33,740 nucleotides of DNA, from assembly GCA_035714365.1 (NCBI GenBank), contig DASTMB010000081.1, positions 1-33,740 of the forward strand, written 5' to 3'. This document shows positions 28,754-33,645 of the stretch, piece after piece (position 1 is the stretch's first letter; every line of letters begins with the position of its first letter). The position numbers were made by a program, and so were the translations under genes. A model generated the notes under the pieces. The model saw only the letters and a list, made by a program, of their open reading frames with translations. It was not told the DNA's origin and did no database searches. This DNA comes from Mycobacteriales bacterium (lineage in GTDB: Bacteria; Actinomycetota; Actinomycetes; BP-191).

Positions 28754-28832
28754 CGACGAAGCCCCCGGGGGCCGAGGTACCACTCGCAAGGGGAAGGCGA
28801 GCGGTGGCGAGGCAGCCGGGGGCTTTGCCCTG
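28754..28832 (+). ncRNA. Candidate structured small RNA
   Basis: Right after the orphan promoter, AAGCCCCCGG (28759-28768) pairs exactly with CCGGGGGCTT (28816-28825), closing a domain of about 67 nt. Inside it, CTCGC (28783-28787) pairs with GCGAG (28797-28801), extended by ACC/GGT after one mismatch, around a purine-rich loop AAGGGGAAG. The closing stem is followed by TTTGCCC, which could end the RNA. The purine loop could pair with C/U-rich sites such as the anti-SD-like region of targets. I match it to no named RNA class. The closing stem on the minus strand could instead terminate marR. Confidence 0.45.
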
Positions 28833-28890
28833 TCCCGGCCTCGCGGACCGCGCCGCGGGCCCGCCGCCCACGCGCGCTGGCGGCGTTGCG

Positions 28891-29331
28891 TCAGAACTCG
28901 CCGAGGGCGGCCACCACCGGTGCGAGCGTCCGCAGCTCCGCCAGGTGCAACGCCGCCAGCTCGCGCAGCCGCCGCTCCCCGTCCGGTGTGAGGAACAGCA
29001 GCACCATCCGCCCGTCGATCGCGCCCCGCACCTTGCGCAGCAGCCCCGCCTTGACCGTCCGGTCGACCAGCTCGGCCGCGCTGTGGTGCCGCAGCATGAG
29101 GTGCTCGGCGACCGTGCCGACGCTCGCGGGGAGGTGACCGCCCGCCCGCGTCGCGCGGACGACGAGCAGGAGCTGGTGCTGCGCCGGCGTGAGCCCGGCC
29201 GCCGCCGCCTGCTCCTCCGACCAGTGCTGGAACCGCCGCAGCGTGTCGCGGAACGCGAGCAGCCGCCGGTAGTCGTCGTCGTCGACCGGGTCGACCGGGG
29301 GGTCGGGGAAGGGTTCGAACGACGAGGTCAC
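28891..29331 (-). CDS. MarR-family transcriptional regulator
   Basis: 146 aa, GTG start. The winged-helix core is readable: 'LTPAQHQLLLVVRATRAGG' (helix 2-3), recognition segment 'SVGTVAEHLMLRHHSAAELVDRTVKAGLLRKV' (about 70-101) and the wing 'GAIDGRMVLLFLTPDGERRLREL'. Helices at both ends ('RRLLAFRDTLRRFQHW', 'LAELRTLAPVVAAL') should dimerise. MarR proteins usually repress their own gene and a divergent one until a small ligand releases them. The divergent neighbour is a ClC transporter, and the 25-base gap between the two starts holds a perfect 6-1-6 palindrome, the likely operator. Its mRNA is leaderless, starting at the GTG. Confidence 0.88.
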   Translation of the reverse strand: MTSSFEPFPDPPVDPVDDDDYRRLLAFRDTLRRFQHWSEEQAAAAGLTPAQHQLLLVVRATRAGGHLPASVGTVAEHLMLRHHSAAELVDRTVKAGLLRKVRGAIDGRMVLLFLTPDGERRLRELAALHLAELRTLAPVVAALGEF

Positions 29332-29367
29332 GGATATATCGTATTACGATCTAACCGTGACCTCGTC
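29321..29367. promoter_or_regulatory. 47-nt near-palindrome: shared operator, -10 boxes and both start codons
   Basis: Centre: ATCGTA-T-TACGAT (29338-29350), a perfect inverted repeat of MarR-operator size. Each half is a TACGAT -10 box, one per strand, six bases from its own GTG (29331 minus, 29357 plus). The symmetry continues outward: GACGAGGTCACGG (29321-29333) is the exact reverse complement of CCGTGACCTCGTC (29355-29367). Of 23 base pairs, 21 match. Both genes thus begin GTGACCTCGTC, encoding M-T-S-S. A bound dimer would block both promoters at once. Confidence 0.8.
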
Positions 29368-31069
29368 AAAACGACTCCTCCTCCTCTCCCTCGTCGCCGC
29401 GGCGCTGGGCGTCGCGGGCGGCGCCGCCGCGTGGCTGCTCGTGCACCTCATCGCGCTGGTGACCAACGTCGCGCTGTTCCACCGGGTGCACGACGTGTGG
29501 ACGATGCCGTCGTTCCGGGAGCTGCCGCGCACGCCCACGCTCGTCGTAGTAGCCGCGGCCGGCGGGCTGCTCGTCGCGCTGCTCGCGACCTGGGCGCCGG
29601 TCATCCGCGGCCACGGCATCCCCGAGGCGATGGAGGCGGTCCTCACCAAGCGCAGCCGGATCGCGCCGCGGACGGCGATCGCCAAGCCGCTGTCGGCGGC
29701 AATCGCGATCGGCACGGGCGGGCCGTTCGGTGCCGAGGGGCCGATCATCGTGACCGGCGGCGCGCTCGGCTCGCTGGTCGGCCAGGCGCTGCCGGTGACC
29801 GCCAACGAGCGCAAGATCCTGCTGGCGTGCGGCGCCGCGGCCGGCATGTCGGCGACGTTCGGGGCGCCGCTGGCGGCGGTGGTGCTCGCGATCGAGCTGC
29901 TGATCTTCGAGTTCTCGACGCGGGCGTTCGTGCCGCTGGTCGTCGCGGCGGGCGTGGCGGCGGGGATGCACGCGGCGCTGTTCGGGACCGGGCCGCTGTT
30001 CGCGGTGCCGCCGCACTCCTACGCCGGGCTGGCCGGCCTCCCCCTCTACGTCGTGCTGGGGCTGCTCTGCGGGCTGCTCGCGGTCGTGGTGAGCAAGGGG
30101 CTGTTCCTCGTGGAGGAGGCGTTCCGGCGGTCGCCGGTGCCAGAGCTGTGGCACCCGGTGATCGGCGGCGTCGGGTTCGCGCTGGTCGGGCTGGTCGTGC
30201 CGCGCGCGCTCGGCGTCGGGTACGACGCGATCGGCGACGTGCTCGGCGGGCGGCTCGCGGCCGGCACGCTGGCGGCGTTGCTGCTCGCGAAGCTGGTGGC
30301 CTGGTGGGTCGCGCTCGGGTCGGGCACGAGCGGCGGCACGCTGGCGCCGCTGCTGCTGATCGGCGGGTCGTTCGGGGCGCTCTACGGGAGCGCGGCGGGG
30401 CACCTGTTCCCGGGCGCGCACCTCGCCGCGGGGGCGGTGGCGGTGGTCGCGATGGCGGCGGTGTTCGGGTCGGCGACGCGGGCGACGTTCGCGTCGATCG
30501 TGTTCGTGTTCGAGCTGACGCGGGACTACGAGGTGATCCTGCCGCTGATGATCGCGAGCGTGGTCGCCGACCTCGTGGCCAGCCGGCTGATGAGCGAGAG
30601 CCTGCTCACCGAGAAACTCGCCCGGCGCGGGCTGGTCGTGAGCGGCGAGTACCACGTCGACGTGCTGCGGGTGCGGCGGGTCGCGGACGTCATGACGCGC
30701 GACGTCGTCACCGTGCCGGCGACGGCGGGGCTGGTCGCGGCGCGGGACACGCTGCTGGCGTCGGGGCACAGCGCGTTGCCGGTGGTGGACGAGGCGGGCG
30801 CCTGCGTCGGCGTGCTCTCCCGCGCCGACCTGCTCGTGCAGGGCGACGAGCCGGCGACCGTGGGATCGGTGGTCGGCGGGCCGCCGGTCTGCGTGGGGCC
30901 GCGCGACCTGGTCGTCGAGGCGCTGGAACGCATGCTCGAGGAGGGCGTCGACCACCTGCCGGTGGTCGAGGACGGCCGCCTCGCCGGCATCTGCACGCGG
31001 ACCGACGTGCTGCGGGCCCGGGCCGAGCAGCTCGACCTGGAACGGCCCGACCCGGTCAGGAGCCGGTGA
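29357..31069 (+). CDS. ClC-family chloride channel/transporter with CBS domains
   Basis: 570 aa with about ten to twelve membrane helices (residues 7-420) and two C-terminal CBS domains (about 440-495 and 505-560). ClC selectivity motifs are present: G-H-G-I-P-E (85-90), where the usual GSGIP Ser is His, G-A-E-G-P (125-129) with the gating Glu127 retained, and G-S-G-T-S-G-G-T-L-A-P (321-331). A retained gating Glu usually means proton-coupled exchange; the proton-side Glu is not identified, so channel versus antiporter is open. The CBS pair probably binds adenine nucleotides. It is controlled with the divergent MarR gene through the shared palindrome. Its 3' end overlaps the convergent hydratase by 14 bases. 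Confidence 0.93.
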   Translation: MTSSKRLLLLSLVAAALGVAGGAAAWLLVHLIALVTNVALFHRVHDVWTMPSFRELPRTPTLVVVAAAGGLLVALLATWAPVIRGHGIPEAMEAVLTKRSRIAPRTAIAKPLSAAIAIGTGGPFGAEGPIIVTGGALGSLVGQALPVTANERKILLACGAAAGMSATFGAPLAAVVLAIELLIFEFSTRAFVPLVVAAGVAAGMHAALFGTGPLFAVPPHSYAGLAGLPLYVVLGLLCGLLAVVVSKGLFLVEEAFRRSPVPELWHPVIGGVGFALVGLVVPRALGVGYDAIGDVLGGRLAAGTLAALLLAKLVAWWVALGSGTSGGTLAPLLLIGGSFGALYGSAAGHLFPGAHLAAGAVAVVAMAAVFGSATRATFASIVFVFELTRDYEVILPLMIASVVADLVASRLMSESLLTEKLARRGLVVSGEYHVDVLRVRRVADVMTRDVVTVPATAGLVAARDTLLASGHSALPVVDEAGACVGVLSRADLLVQGDEPATVGSVVGGPPVCVGPRDLVVEALERMLEEGVDHLPVVEDGRLAGICTRTDVLRARAEQLDLERPDPVRSR

Positions 31070-31847: not shown

Positions 31848-31935
31848 CGGAACGTAACCCTTGTGGGTGACGCGACGGGGTGTCCCGGAGGCCGACGAAA
31901 CGGGGGACGGACCAGACGTACCCGACGGAGGCACC

Positions 31936-33645
31936 ATGCGCCGCGTTCCCGCCCTCGCGCTGGCACTCGCCTGCGCCGGGCCGGCGGTGACCGCGCCGGC
32001 GCCGCTCGCCGCGGCCCGGCAGGTCGTCGTGGTGTCCCCGTCCGGGTCCGTCGCGGACGCCGCCGGCGTGGTGACGCGGGCCGGCGGCCGGGTCGTGGCG
32101 CGGCTGCCGCTCGCGGGGGCGGTCGTGGCGCGGGTGCGGGGGACGTTGCCGCCGCCGGTCGTCGTCGCGGAGGACCGGACGCTGCGCGTGGCCGGGCTCA
32201 CCGCCGACGCCACGGGCGCGTCCACGGTGCGCTCGACACTCGGCCTGGCCGCGACCGGCACCGAGGGCGCGGGCGTGACCGTCGCGCTGGTCGACACCGG
32301 CGTCGCCGACGTCGCCGACCTGCCGCGGGTGGAGCACGCCGACGTCACCGGCACGGGCGGCGGCGACGCGTACGGGCACGGGACGTTCATGGCGGGGCTC
32401 ATCGCCGGCAACGGTGCCTCCTCCGGCGGCCGGTACACCGGCATCGCGCCCGGCGCGCGGCTGCTCGACGTCAAGGTCGCCGACGGCACCGGCGCGACGA
32501 CGCTGTCGACGGTGCTGCGCGGGCTCGAGGTCGTCGCCGCGCGCCCGGACGTGAAGGTGCTCAACCTCTCGCTCTCCTCCGGCAGCCCGCTGCCGTGGCA
32601 GCTCGACCCGCTCACCCGGGCGCTGGACGCACTGTGGCGGCGCGGGGTGACCGTCGTCGTGCCCAGCGGCAACGACGGCCCGGACGCGCGCACGATCGCC
32701 TCGCCGGGCGTCGACCCGACGCTGCTCACCGTCGCCGCCGTGGACGAGAACGGCACCGCCGACCGTTCCGACGACACCGTGCCGGGGTGGTCCTCGCGCG
32801 GCCCCGCGCCGCAGGACGTGGCCAAGCCGGACCTCGCCGCGCCGGGGGCGCACGTCGTCTCGCTGCGGGCGCCGGGCTCCGCCGTCGACGCCGCCAACCC
32901 GGACGCGCGCGTCGAGAACGCGTACTTCCGCGGCTCCGGCACGTCGATGGCGACCGCCGTCACCTCCGGCGCGGTCGCGGCGCTGCTGTCGGCCCGCGGC
33001 TGGCTCGCACCGGACGCCGTCAAGAACGCCGTCACCACGTCGACTTACGACGCGCCGGGGCTGGCGTCGTACGACGCCGCCGGGACCGGCGGGCTCGACC
33101 TCGCGGCGGCGTACGACGCGAAGGTGCGGCACGCGCGGCTCGTCCGCGCCGGGCGGGCCGGCGGCGACCAGGAGCTGGCGTTCGCCGAGCTGGCGCGGGC
33201 CTGGGCGGCCGGGGATTACGACGCGGCCGCGCGGGCCTGGGCGCTGCTCGACCCGCAGGCGCGGGCGTGGGCGGCGCGGGCATGGGCGGCGTTCGTGTGG
33301 CAGCGCGCGAACTCGTGGAGCACCAGCGAGTGGATGGGCCGGGCGTGGGCGGCGCGCGCCTGGGCCGCGGACGACGAGTGGCTGGGCCGGGCGTGGGCCG
33401 CCCGGGCCTGGGCCGACACCGACTGGGCCGGGCGCGCCTGGTCCGCCCGGGCCTGGGCCGCGCGGGCCTGGTCCGACGGCTCGTGGTCGGCGCGCGCCTG
33501 GTCCGACGACGACTGGGCGGGCCGCGCCTGGGCGGCCGACGGCTGGGCGGCGCGGGCGTGGACCGGGCGGGCCTGGACCGGCGACGACTGGGCCGGCCGC
33601 TCCTGGTCGGCGCGCGGCTGGGCCGCCGCCTCGTGGGGGCCGTGA
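31936..33645 (+). CDS. Secreted S8 subtilase with tryptophan pentad-repeat tail
   Basis: 569 aa from ATG 31936, with GGAGG four bases upstream. Residues 1-27 form a signal peptide. A short pro-region (28-105) is followed by the subtilisin fold: Asp120 (A-L-V-D-T-G-V), His148 (Y-G-H-G-T-F-M-A-G), the oxyanion Asn246 (P-S-G-N-D) and Ser337 (G-S-G-T-S-M-A-T). From residue 421 to the end the chain is a low-complexity tail with 27 Trp. From W482 to W567 a Trp stands at every fifth position, 18 in a row, with consensus [A/S/T]-[A/G]-R-A-W, alternating with acidic units (S-D-D-D-W, T-G-D-D-W). Such a tail could bind cell wall, carbohydrate or membrane. Its catalytic part should be an active exported protease; the tail's function is unknown. 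Confidence 0.92.
   Translation: MRRVPALALALACAGPAVTAPAPLAAARQVVVVSPSGSVADAAGVVTRAGGRVVARLPLAGAVVARVRGTLPPPVVVAEDRTLRVAGLTADATGASTVRSTLGLAATGTEGAGVTVALVDTGVADVADLPRVEHADVTGTGGGDAYGHGTFMAGLIAGNGASSGGRYTGIAPGARLLDVKVADGTGATTLSTVLRGLEVVAARPDVKVLNLSLSSGSPLPWQLDPLTRALDALWRRGVTVVVPSGNDGPDARTIASPGVDPTLLTVAAVDENGTADRSDDTVPGWSSRGPAPQDVAKPDLAAPGAHVVSLRAPGSAVDAANPDARVENAYFRGSGTSMATAVTSGAVAALLSARGWLAPDAVKNAVTTSTYDAPGLASYDAAGTGGLDLAAAYDAKVRHARLVRAGRAGGDQELAFAELARAWAAGDYDAAARAWALLDPQARAWAARAWAAFVWQRANSWSTSEWMGRAWAARAWAADDEWLGRAWAARAWADTDWAGRAWSARAWAARAWSDGSWSARAWSDDDWAGRAWAADGWAARAWTGRAWTGDDWAGRSWSARGWAAASWGP

Follow-up and report, generated by a model that had tools for sequence, protein, structure and literature searches.

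A putative MarR operator in a divergent marR-clc promoter region, within a 47-bp palindrome whose outer arms are probably of non-adaptive origin

The divergent marR and clc genes described here lie in a window (the whole stretch of DNA that was analysed) of 33,740 nucleotides from a Mycobacteriales bacterium, and both of their start codons fall inside one 47-bp near-palindrome. Comparison of homologous loci indicates that the conserved role within this palindrome belongs to what is probably an ordinary MarR operator in a pair of divergent, predicted leaderless promoters, and that mutation or chance accounts better than function for the symmetry running through the two coding starts. The account that we favour, and consider reasonably probable as a whole, is that of an acquired marR-clc module in which a core operator overlies two leaderless promoters and whose outer palindrome arms arose by a template switch. 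It would be an ordinary divergent MarR module with, probably, an unusual and non-adaptive sequence history.

Results

Start codons and promoters of marR and clc

The features of the region are listed in Table 1. The Pfam match that assigns a MarR winged-helix domain to the marR product is above the cut-off. On both strands, TACGAT is followed after six bases by a GTG codon (at 29357 on the forward and 29331 on the reverse strand); both genes start with GTGACCTCGTC, and MTSS is the N-terminus of both proteins. These observations bear out the initial annotation, which had described a GTG six bases past each operator half and a shared 5' sequence of the two genes. Neither reading frame contains another ATG, GTG or TTG between the upstream stop codon and the GTG, and no Shine-Dalgarno sequence is visible before either GTG; being the only in-frame starts, the two codons are secure on sequence grounds.

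Table 1. Features of the marR-clc region, with positions in the window.
Feature	Position	Strand	Remarks
marR	28891..29331	-	146 aa; MarR_2 family, Pfam PF12802 (6.3e-07); homologues found
clc	29357..31069	+	570 aa; voltage-gated chloride channel/transporter, PF00654 (Voltage_CLC, 1.7e-85); two CBS domains (PF00571)
Predicted -10 box of clc, TACGAT	29345..29350	+	6 bases before GTG; direct sequence
Predicted -10 box of marR, TACGAT	29338..29343	-	6 bases before GTG; direct sequence
Predicted MarR operator core, ATCGTATTACGAT	29338..29350		Conserved as ATCGTNNNACGAT upstream of MarR homologues
Outer arm GACGAGGTCACGG	29321..29333		Spans marR start codon and codons 2 to 4; likely recipient arm
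Outer arm CCGTGACCTCGTC	29355..29367		Spans clc start codon and codons 2 to 4; likely donor arm
marR-clc segment absent from both same-genus genomes	28888..31055 (approximate)		Flank comparison

A TANNNT motif that begins 12 bp before the start codon is the usual signature of bacterial leaderless genes, which account for more than 20% of actinobacterial genes (PMC3160421). In the marR-clc region, TANNNT is centred about 10 bp before both GTGs, each lacking a Shine-Dalgarno sequence, and -7T, -11A, -12T and -18T are present on both strands. A convincing -35 element is found on neither strand of the promoter region; the outer arms were considered for this role and rejected, being unlike TTGACA at spacers of 16 to 19. 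The same spacing between TACGAT and the start codon occurs before the MarR start in the homologous loci L113 (TACGAT-ATATCT-ATG) and L103 (TACGAT-ATACGC-GTG). We infer that both genes are transcribed as leaderless mRNAs. The proposal that the centre of the palindrome serves as -10 region for both strands stands in the form that each strand has its own -10-like hexamer at leaderless spacing.

The palindrome and its rarity

A pair-by-pair check around the centre, T29344, confirmed that positions 29321-29367 (GACGAGGTCACGGATATATCGTATTACGATCTAACCGTGACCTCGTC) are symmetric at exactly 21 of 23 pairs, as originally counted: pairs 1-6, 8-9 and 11-23 match, and pairs 7 and 10 do not. The outer arms, 13 bp each (29321-29333 and 29355-29367), form a perfect inverted match, and the symmetry stops abruptly at pair 24, with six successive mismatches past pair 23. 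Folded as DNA, the 47-mer gives a hairpin of -19.4 kcal/mol (z -8.1). The same stretch was also considered as an RNA element and rejected, no Rfam family matching there.

In the window, this is the top palindrome of its size, the runner-up having 18 of 23 symmetric pairs, and 60 windows simulated with the same dinucleotide composition contained none of 20 or more pairs in 4.04 million placements. Extrapolation of the tail, based on the window and these simulations, gives very roughly 0.004 palindromes of such length per window, or about 0.5 per 3.8-Mb genome. A palindrome of this length is therefore no astronomical rarity in itself; what is so rare is that it sits in exact register with a conserved operator and two start codons.

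A conserved operator core upstream of MarR homologues

Scanning genome contigs with the MarR protein yielded 80 loci, to which class and phylum searches added more. Many of them hold a clc gene, mostly in divergent orientation; marR and clc are a unit of adjoining genes in many Actinomycetota. Upstream of marR, ATCGTNNNACGAT was present with at most one mismatch in 51 non-redundant loci of the 98 with a MarR homologue (29 of them exact), including 36 of the 41 loci with a divergent, adjacent clc gene; a reversed-pattern control gave one locus. A short inverted repeat conserved beside marR, as is found here, is the mark of an operator of a MarR repressor. In 49 sequences (the window and locus L080 being left out), the core has an invariant ATCG on its left and an invariant GA on its right. 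It should be noted that these loci were selected by the core pattern, and that the flanks, not the core, are therefore the fair comparison. Two of the nearest homologues, L006 and L102, have no recognisable core operator at up to one mismatch.

The position of this element upstream of marR is conserved, and in the window it overlaps both predicted promoters. The core ATCGTNNNACGAT is thus best read as a likely MarR operator overlying both -10 boxes, in agreement with the suggestion made from the central 13 bp alone. A wider regulon was considered and rejected: the 3.8-Mb genome contains only two exact copies of ATCGTNNNACGAT, and the sole other one (C23:28706) lies inside a seemingly unrelated coding region and is probably there by chance. 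Tandem operator pairs were observed upstream of marR in L042, L021, L047, L015, L111 and L112, with starts 16 bp apart in Acidimicrobiaceae-type loci and 13 bp apart in L111 and L112; in such tandem loci the MarR start is often directly at the second copy.

Lack of conservation in the outer arms

Left-right symmetry in the 49 other loci is 76-100% at pairs 2-6 and 73% at pair 7, and it drops to 22-47% at pairs 8-23. Summed over pairs 11-23, 197 symmetric pairs were observed against 181 +/- 10 expected when left and right flanks are drawn from different loci (permutation p = 0.066), and none of the 2,352 cross-pairings of other loci rose above 10 of 13. Comparable arm symmetry is also absent from the ten nearest CLC homologues (61-71% identical; L006, L008, L014, L016, L102, L103, L108 and L111-L113), the tree neighbour L014 having 3 of 13. 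Since symmetry past pair 7 falls near the cross-locus expectation, the core is, as judged from these alignments, the conserved operator, and the outer arms lie outside it without a conserved role. Of the genomes seen, only this one has symmetry that runs through both coding starts.

An independent long extension was observed in L080, a distant homologue, where AT-rich intergenic DNA outside coding regions contains the same operator within a perfect palindrome of 20 pairs (TATACTATTTATATCGTACTACGATATAAATAGTATA, at about 2923-2963). L009 has extended symmetry as well, weaker than that of L080.

Origin of the arms

Where the window has Met-Thr-Ser-Ser, the CLC homologues have Thr, then Ser (often), Pro or Thr, and immediately after these a conserved basic-Arg motif; examples of their codons are ACC TCG (L006), ACC TCC (L008, L014) and ACA TCG (L103). 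The N-termini of the MarR homologues are variable and unrelated to that of the window. Over the eight arm bases that follow the GTG, the average match, with starts aligned by hand, is 5.1 of 8 for CLC homologues and 2.0 of 8, which is background, for MarR homologues. Because the arm bases fit the CLC and not the MarR homologues, an ancestral state is suggested for the clc arm, and the marR arm resembles a copy of it. The collections searched held no close relative of the locus, the best CLC being 71% identical, and a search around G442 gave no closer one.

Template switching is documented as copying one arm onto the other in imperfect inverted repeats, coding DNA included (PMC8604942, PMC7202029), and its mark, perfect arms with abrupt ends flanking a hairpin-forming core, is what is found at 29321-29367. 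The clc arm was probably copied onto the marR start in this way (quasipalindrome correction), in which case the mismatched inner pairs 7 and 10 would lie outside the copied tract or be later changes. Given the perfect 20-pair extension in L080, extension around the operator has probably happened more than once.

The same operator and promoters would be compatible with arms that match by coincidence. Mirrored leaderless GTG starts supply three pairs for nothing, GTG-ACC-TCG is a plausible style of gene start at 76% GC, and a large scan had singled the site out for its symmetry. The arm 13-mer occurs, at up to one mismatch, 82 times in the genome versus 25 times for a reversed control, with near-matches so scattered that a repeat family was rejected; the extrapolated genome-wide rate given above speaks for chance as well. 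Mirrored GTG contexts taken at random from the window agree at all ten flanking bases in 47 of 2 million pairs (about 2.4e-5), a figure that can be read both ways, as coincidence needs about 1 in 40,000 at one site even with both GTGs granted. It also has to contend with the ceiling of 10 of 13 among the cross-pairings and with the extension in L080, which suggests a recurring process. We rate template switching above coincidence, which we regard as possible, if rather unlikely.

The initial annotation had instead offered selection acting on the start region, or an inverted duplication as the source of the divergent pair. In favour of selection, both start codons lie within flawless arms, and extended symmetry recurs in L080 and, more weakly, in L009, as might be expected if the extra symmetry provided contacts for a regulator or RNA polymerase, or if a shared 5' mRNA sequence matched the translation of both leaderless mRNAs. 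However, the relatives keep the core with asymmetric outer arms, the very outcome that the initial annotation had named as refuting its proposal: the excess in the 49 homologous loci is not significant, the nearest homologues have no such arms, the extension in L080 is outside coding regions, and the -35 positions within the arms do not resemble the consensus. Selection for the extended symmetry is accordingly a very improbable reading, and it is about as improbable that the whole 47-bp palindrome is functional here, with operator, two promoters and two identical leaderless starts held symmetric; if it were, repressor and transporter would be made in a fixed ratio from one element. As for an inverted duplication, the 11-nt starts are indeed identical on the two strands, but the genes encode unrelated proteins whose likeness stops at codon 4, and the divergent pair with its core operator is ancient and widespread in many lineages without arm symmetry, which leaves that origin unsupported and its probability negligible.

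History of the gene pair

Two other genomes of the same genus, all that searches of genus, family and order gave, lack both marR and clc. Both retain the neighbouring genes for a YgjP-like protein and an enoyl-CoA hydratase, with flanks that meet within tens of bases where the window has about 2.2 kb, from the marR stop codon to the end of clc. The sampled CLCs of the same class are 39-46% identical and placed elsewhere in the tree, and most of the closest relatives (61-71%) belong to other classes of Actinomycetota, Acidimicrobiia included. Since the two same-genus genomes are without both genes, a gain of the pair by horizontal transfer is the simplest reading and a probable one, the alternative being loss in both sister species. 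Cargo of a mobile plasmid was considered and rejected, all plasmid-borne CLC relatives being less than 60% identical.

Some further observations concern this neighbourhood. The CLC of L006, on contig JAICSG010000023.1 of a Thermoanaerobaculia MAG, is 69% identical to the actinobacterial one, reflecting either transfer or a mis-binned contig. Positions 28757-28828 (+) hold a hairpin of about 72 nt (GAAGCCCCCGGGGGCCGAGG...CCGGGGGCTTT) that both same-genus genomes have in nearly identical form, G002 showing some paired changes; it matches no Rfam family and may be a conserved RNA or a terminator. An open reading frame at 31861-33645 (+) looks like that of a subtilisin-type protease whose tail is repetitive and rich in tryptophan (RAWAARAW and SARAWS units).

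Discussion

The proposed sequence of events starts with a marR-clc module that was probably acquired horizontally. A MarR dimer would bind the predicted site ATCGTATTACGAT and, since each half of the operator doubles as a -10 box, would shut RNA polymerase out of both divergent leaderless promoters; ligand binding to MarR would release them. The functional palindrome would stop near the core and its immediate flanks, with the 13-bp outer arms as a lineage-specific add-on. These arms most probably arose during replication, when the operator folded into a quasi-palindromic hairpin and the clc start CCGTGACCTCGTC (about 13 bp) was copied by a template switch onto the marR start, giving MTSS on both proteins.

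The element ATCGTNNNACGAT would represent a conserved, apparently undescribed MarR operator of a widespread marR-clc module, and it offers a testable control of a bacterial CLC transporter that has no assigned role. The locus is also a candidate bacterial case, with L080 as a possible second, in which a regulator's own palindromic site gives rise to template switching in a hairpin, by which adjacent gene starts are rewritten. Such switching is a non-adaptive route to striking symmetry, which calls for caution in reading long palindromes as selected.

The openly accessible literature that was searched contained no direct precedent for MarR paired with a chloride channel or for a leaderless pair with a palindrome. 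The divergent, autorepressed MarR protein CrtR of Corynebacterium glutamicum, whose own mRNA is reported to be leaderless (PMC5401885), resembles the predicted marR-clc system in that the MarR gene diverges from its target and a short palindromic site lies over promoter elements. However, 200 bp separate crtR from crtE, and the leader of the crtE mRNA is 114 nt long (PMC5401885), whereas the starts of marR and clc are 26 bp apart and both predicted to be leaderless, a single operator covers the two -10 boxes, and a CLC transporter is the target. Bidirectional promoters with a symmetric -10 sequence are common, with transcription start sites (TSSs) about 18 bp apart in a counted range of 7-25 bp, according to Middlemiss et al. 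2023 (PMC10268837, citing Warman et al. 2021). The marR-clc region shares with the promoters described there a symmetric -10 sequence, with -7T, -11A and -18T on both strands. Their -10 elements overlap, whereas those of marR and clc are adjacent, and the region does not combine that TSS spacing with reciprocal -7/-11 positions; the predicted TSSs, at 29331 and 29357, are 26 and not about 18 bp apart, and the arrangement is therefore better described as two side-by-side promoters than as a classical shared -10.

The arms share with known quasipalindrome template switches an inverted repeat made more perfect by arm-to-arm copying, which can change several neighbouring codons (PMC7202029, PMC8604942); the present case differs in that it extends across two divergent genes with the operator as the loop, and is deduced from present-day sequence. 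Finally, spacing and hexamer on both strands fit the leaderless genes described earlier (PMC3160421), with the difference that in marR-clc two such starts stand back to back around one operator.
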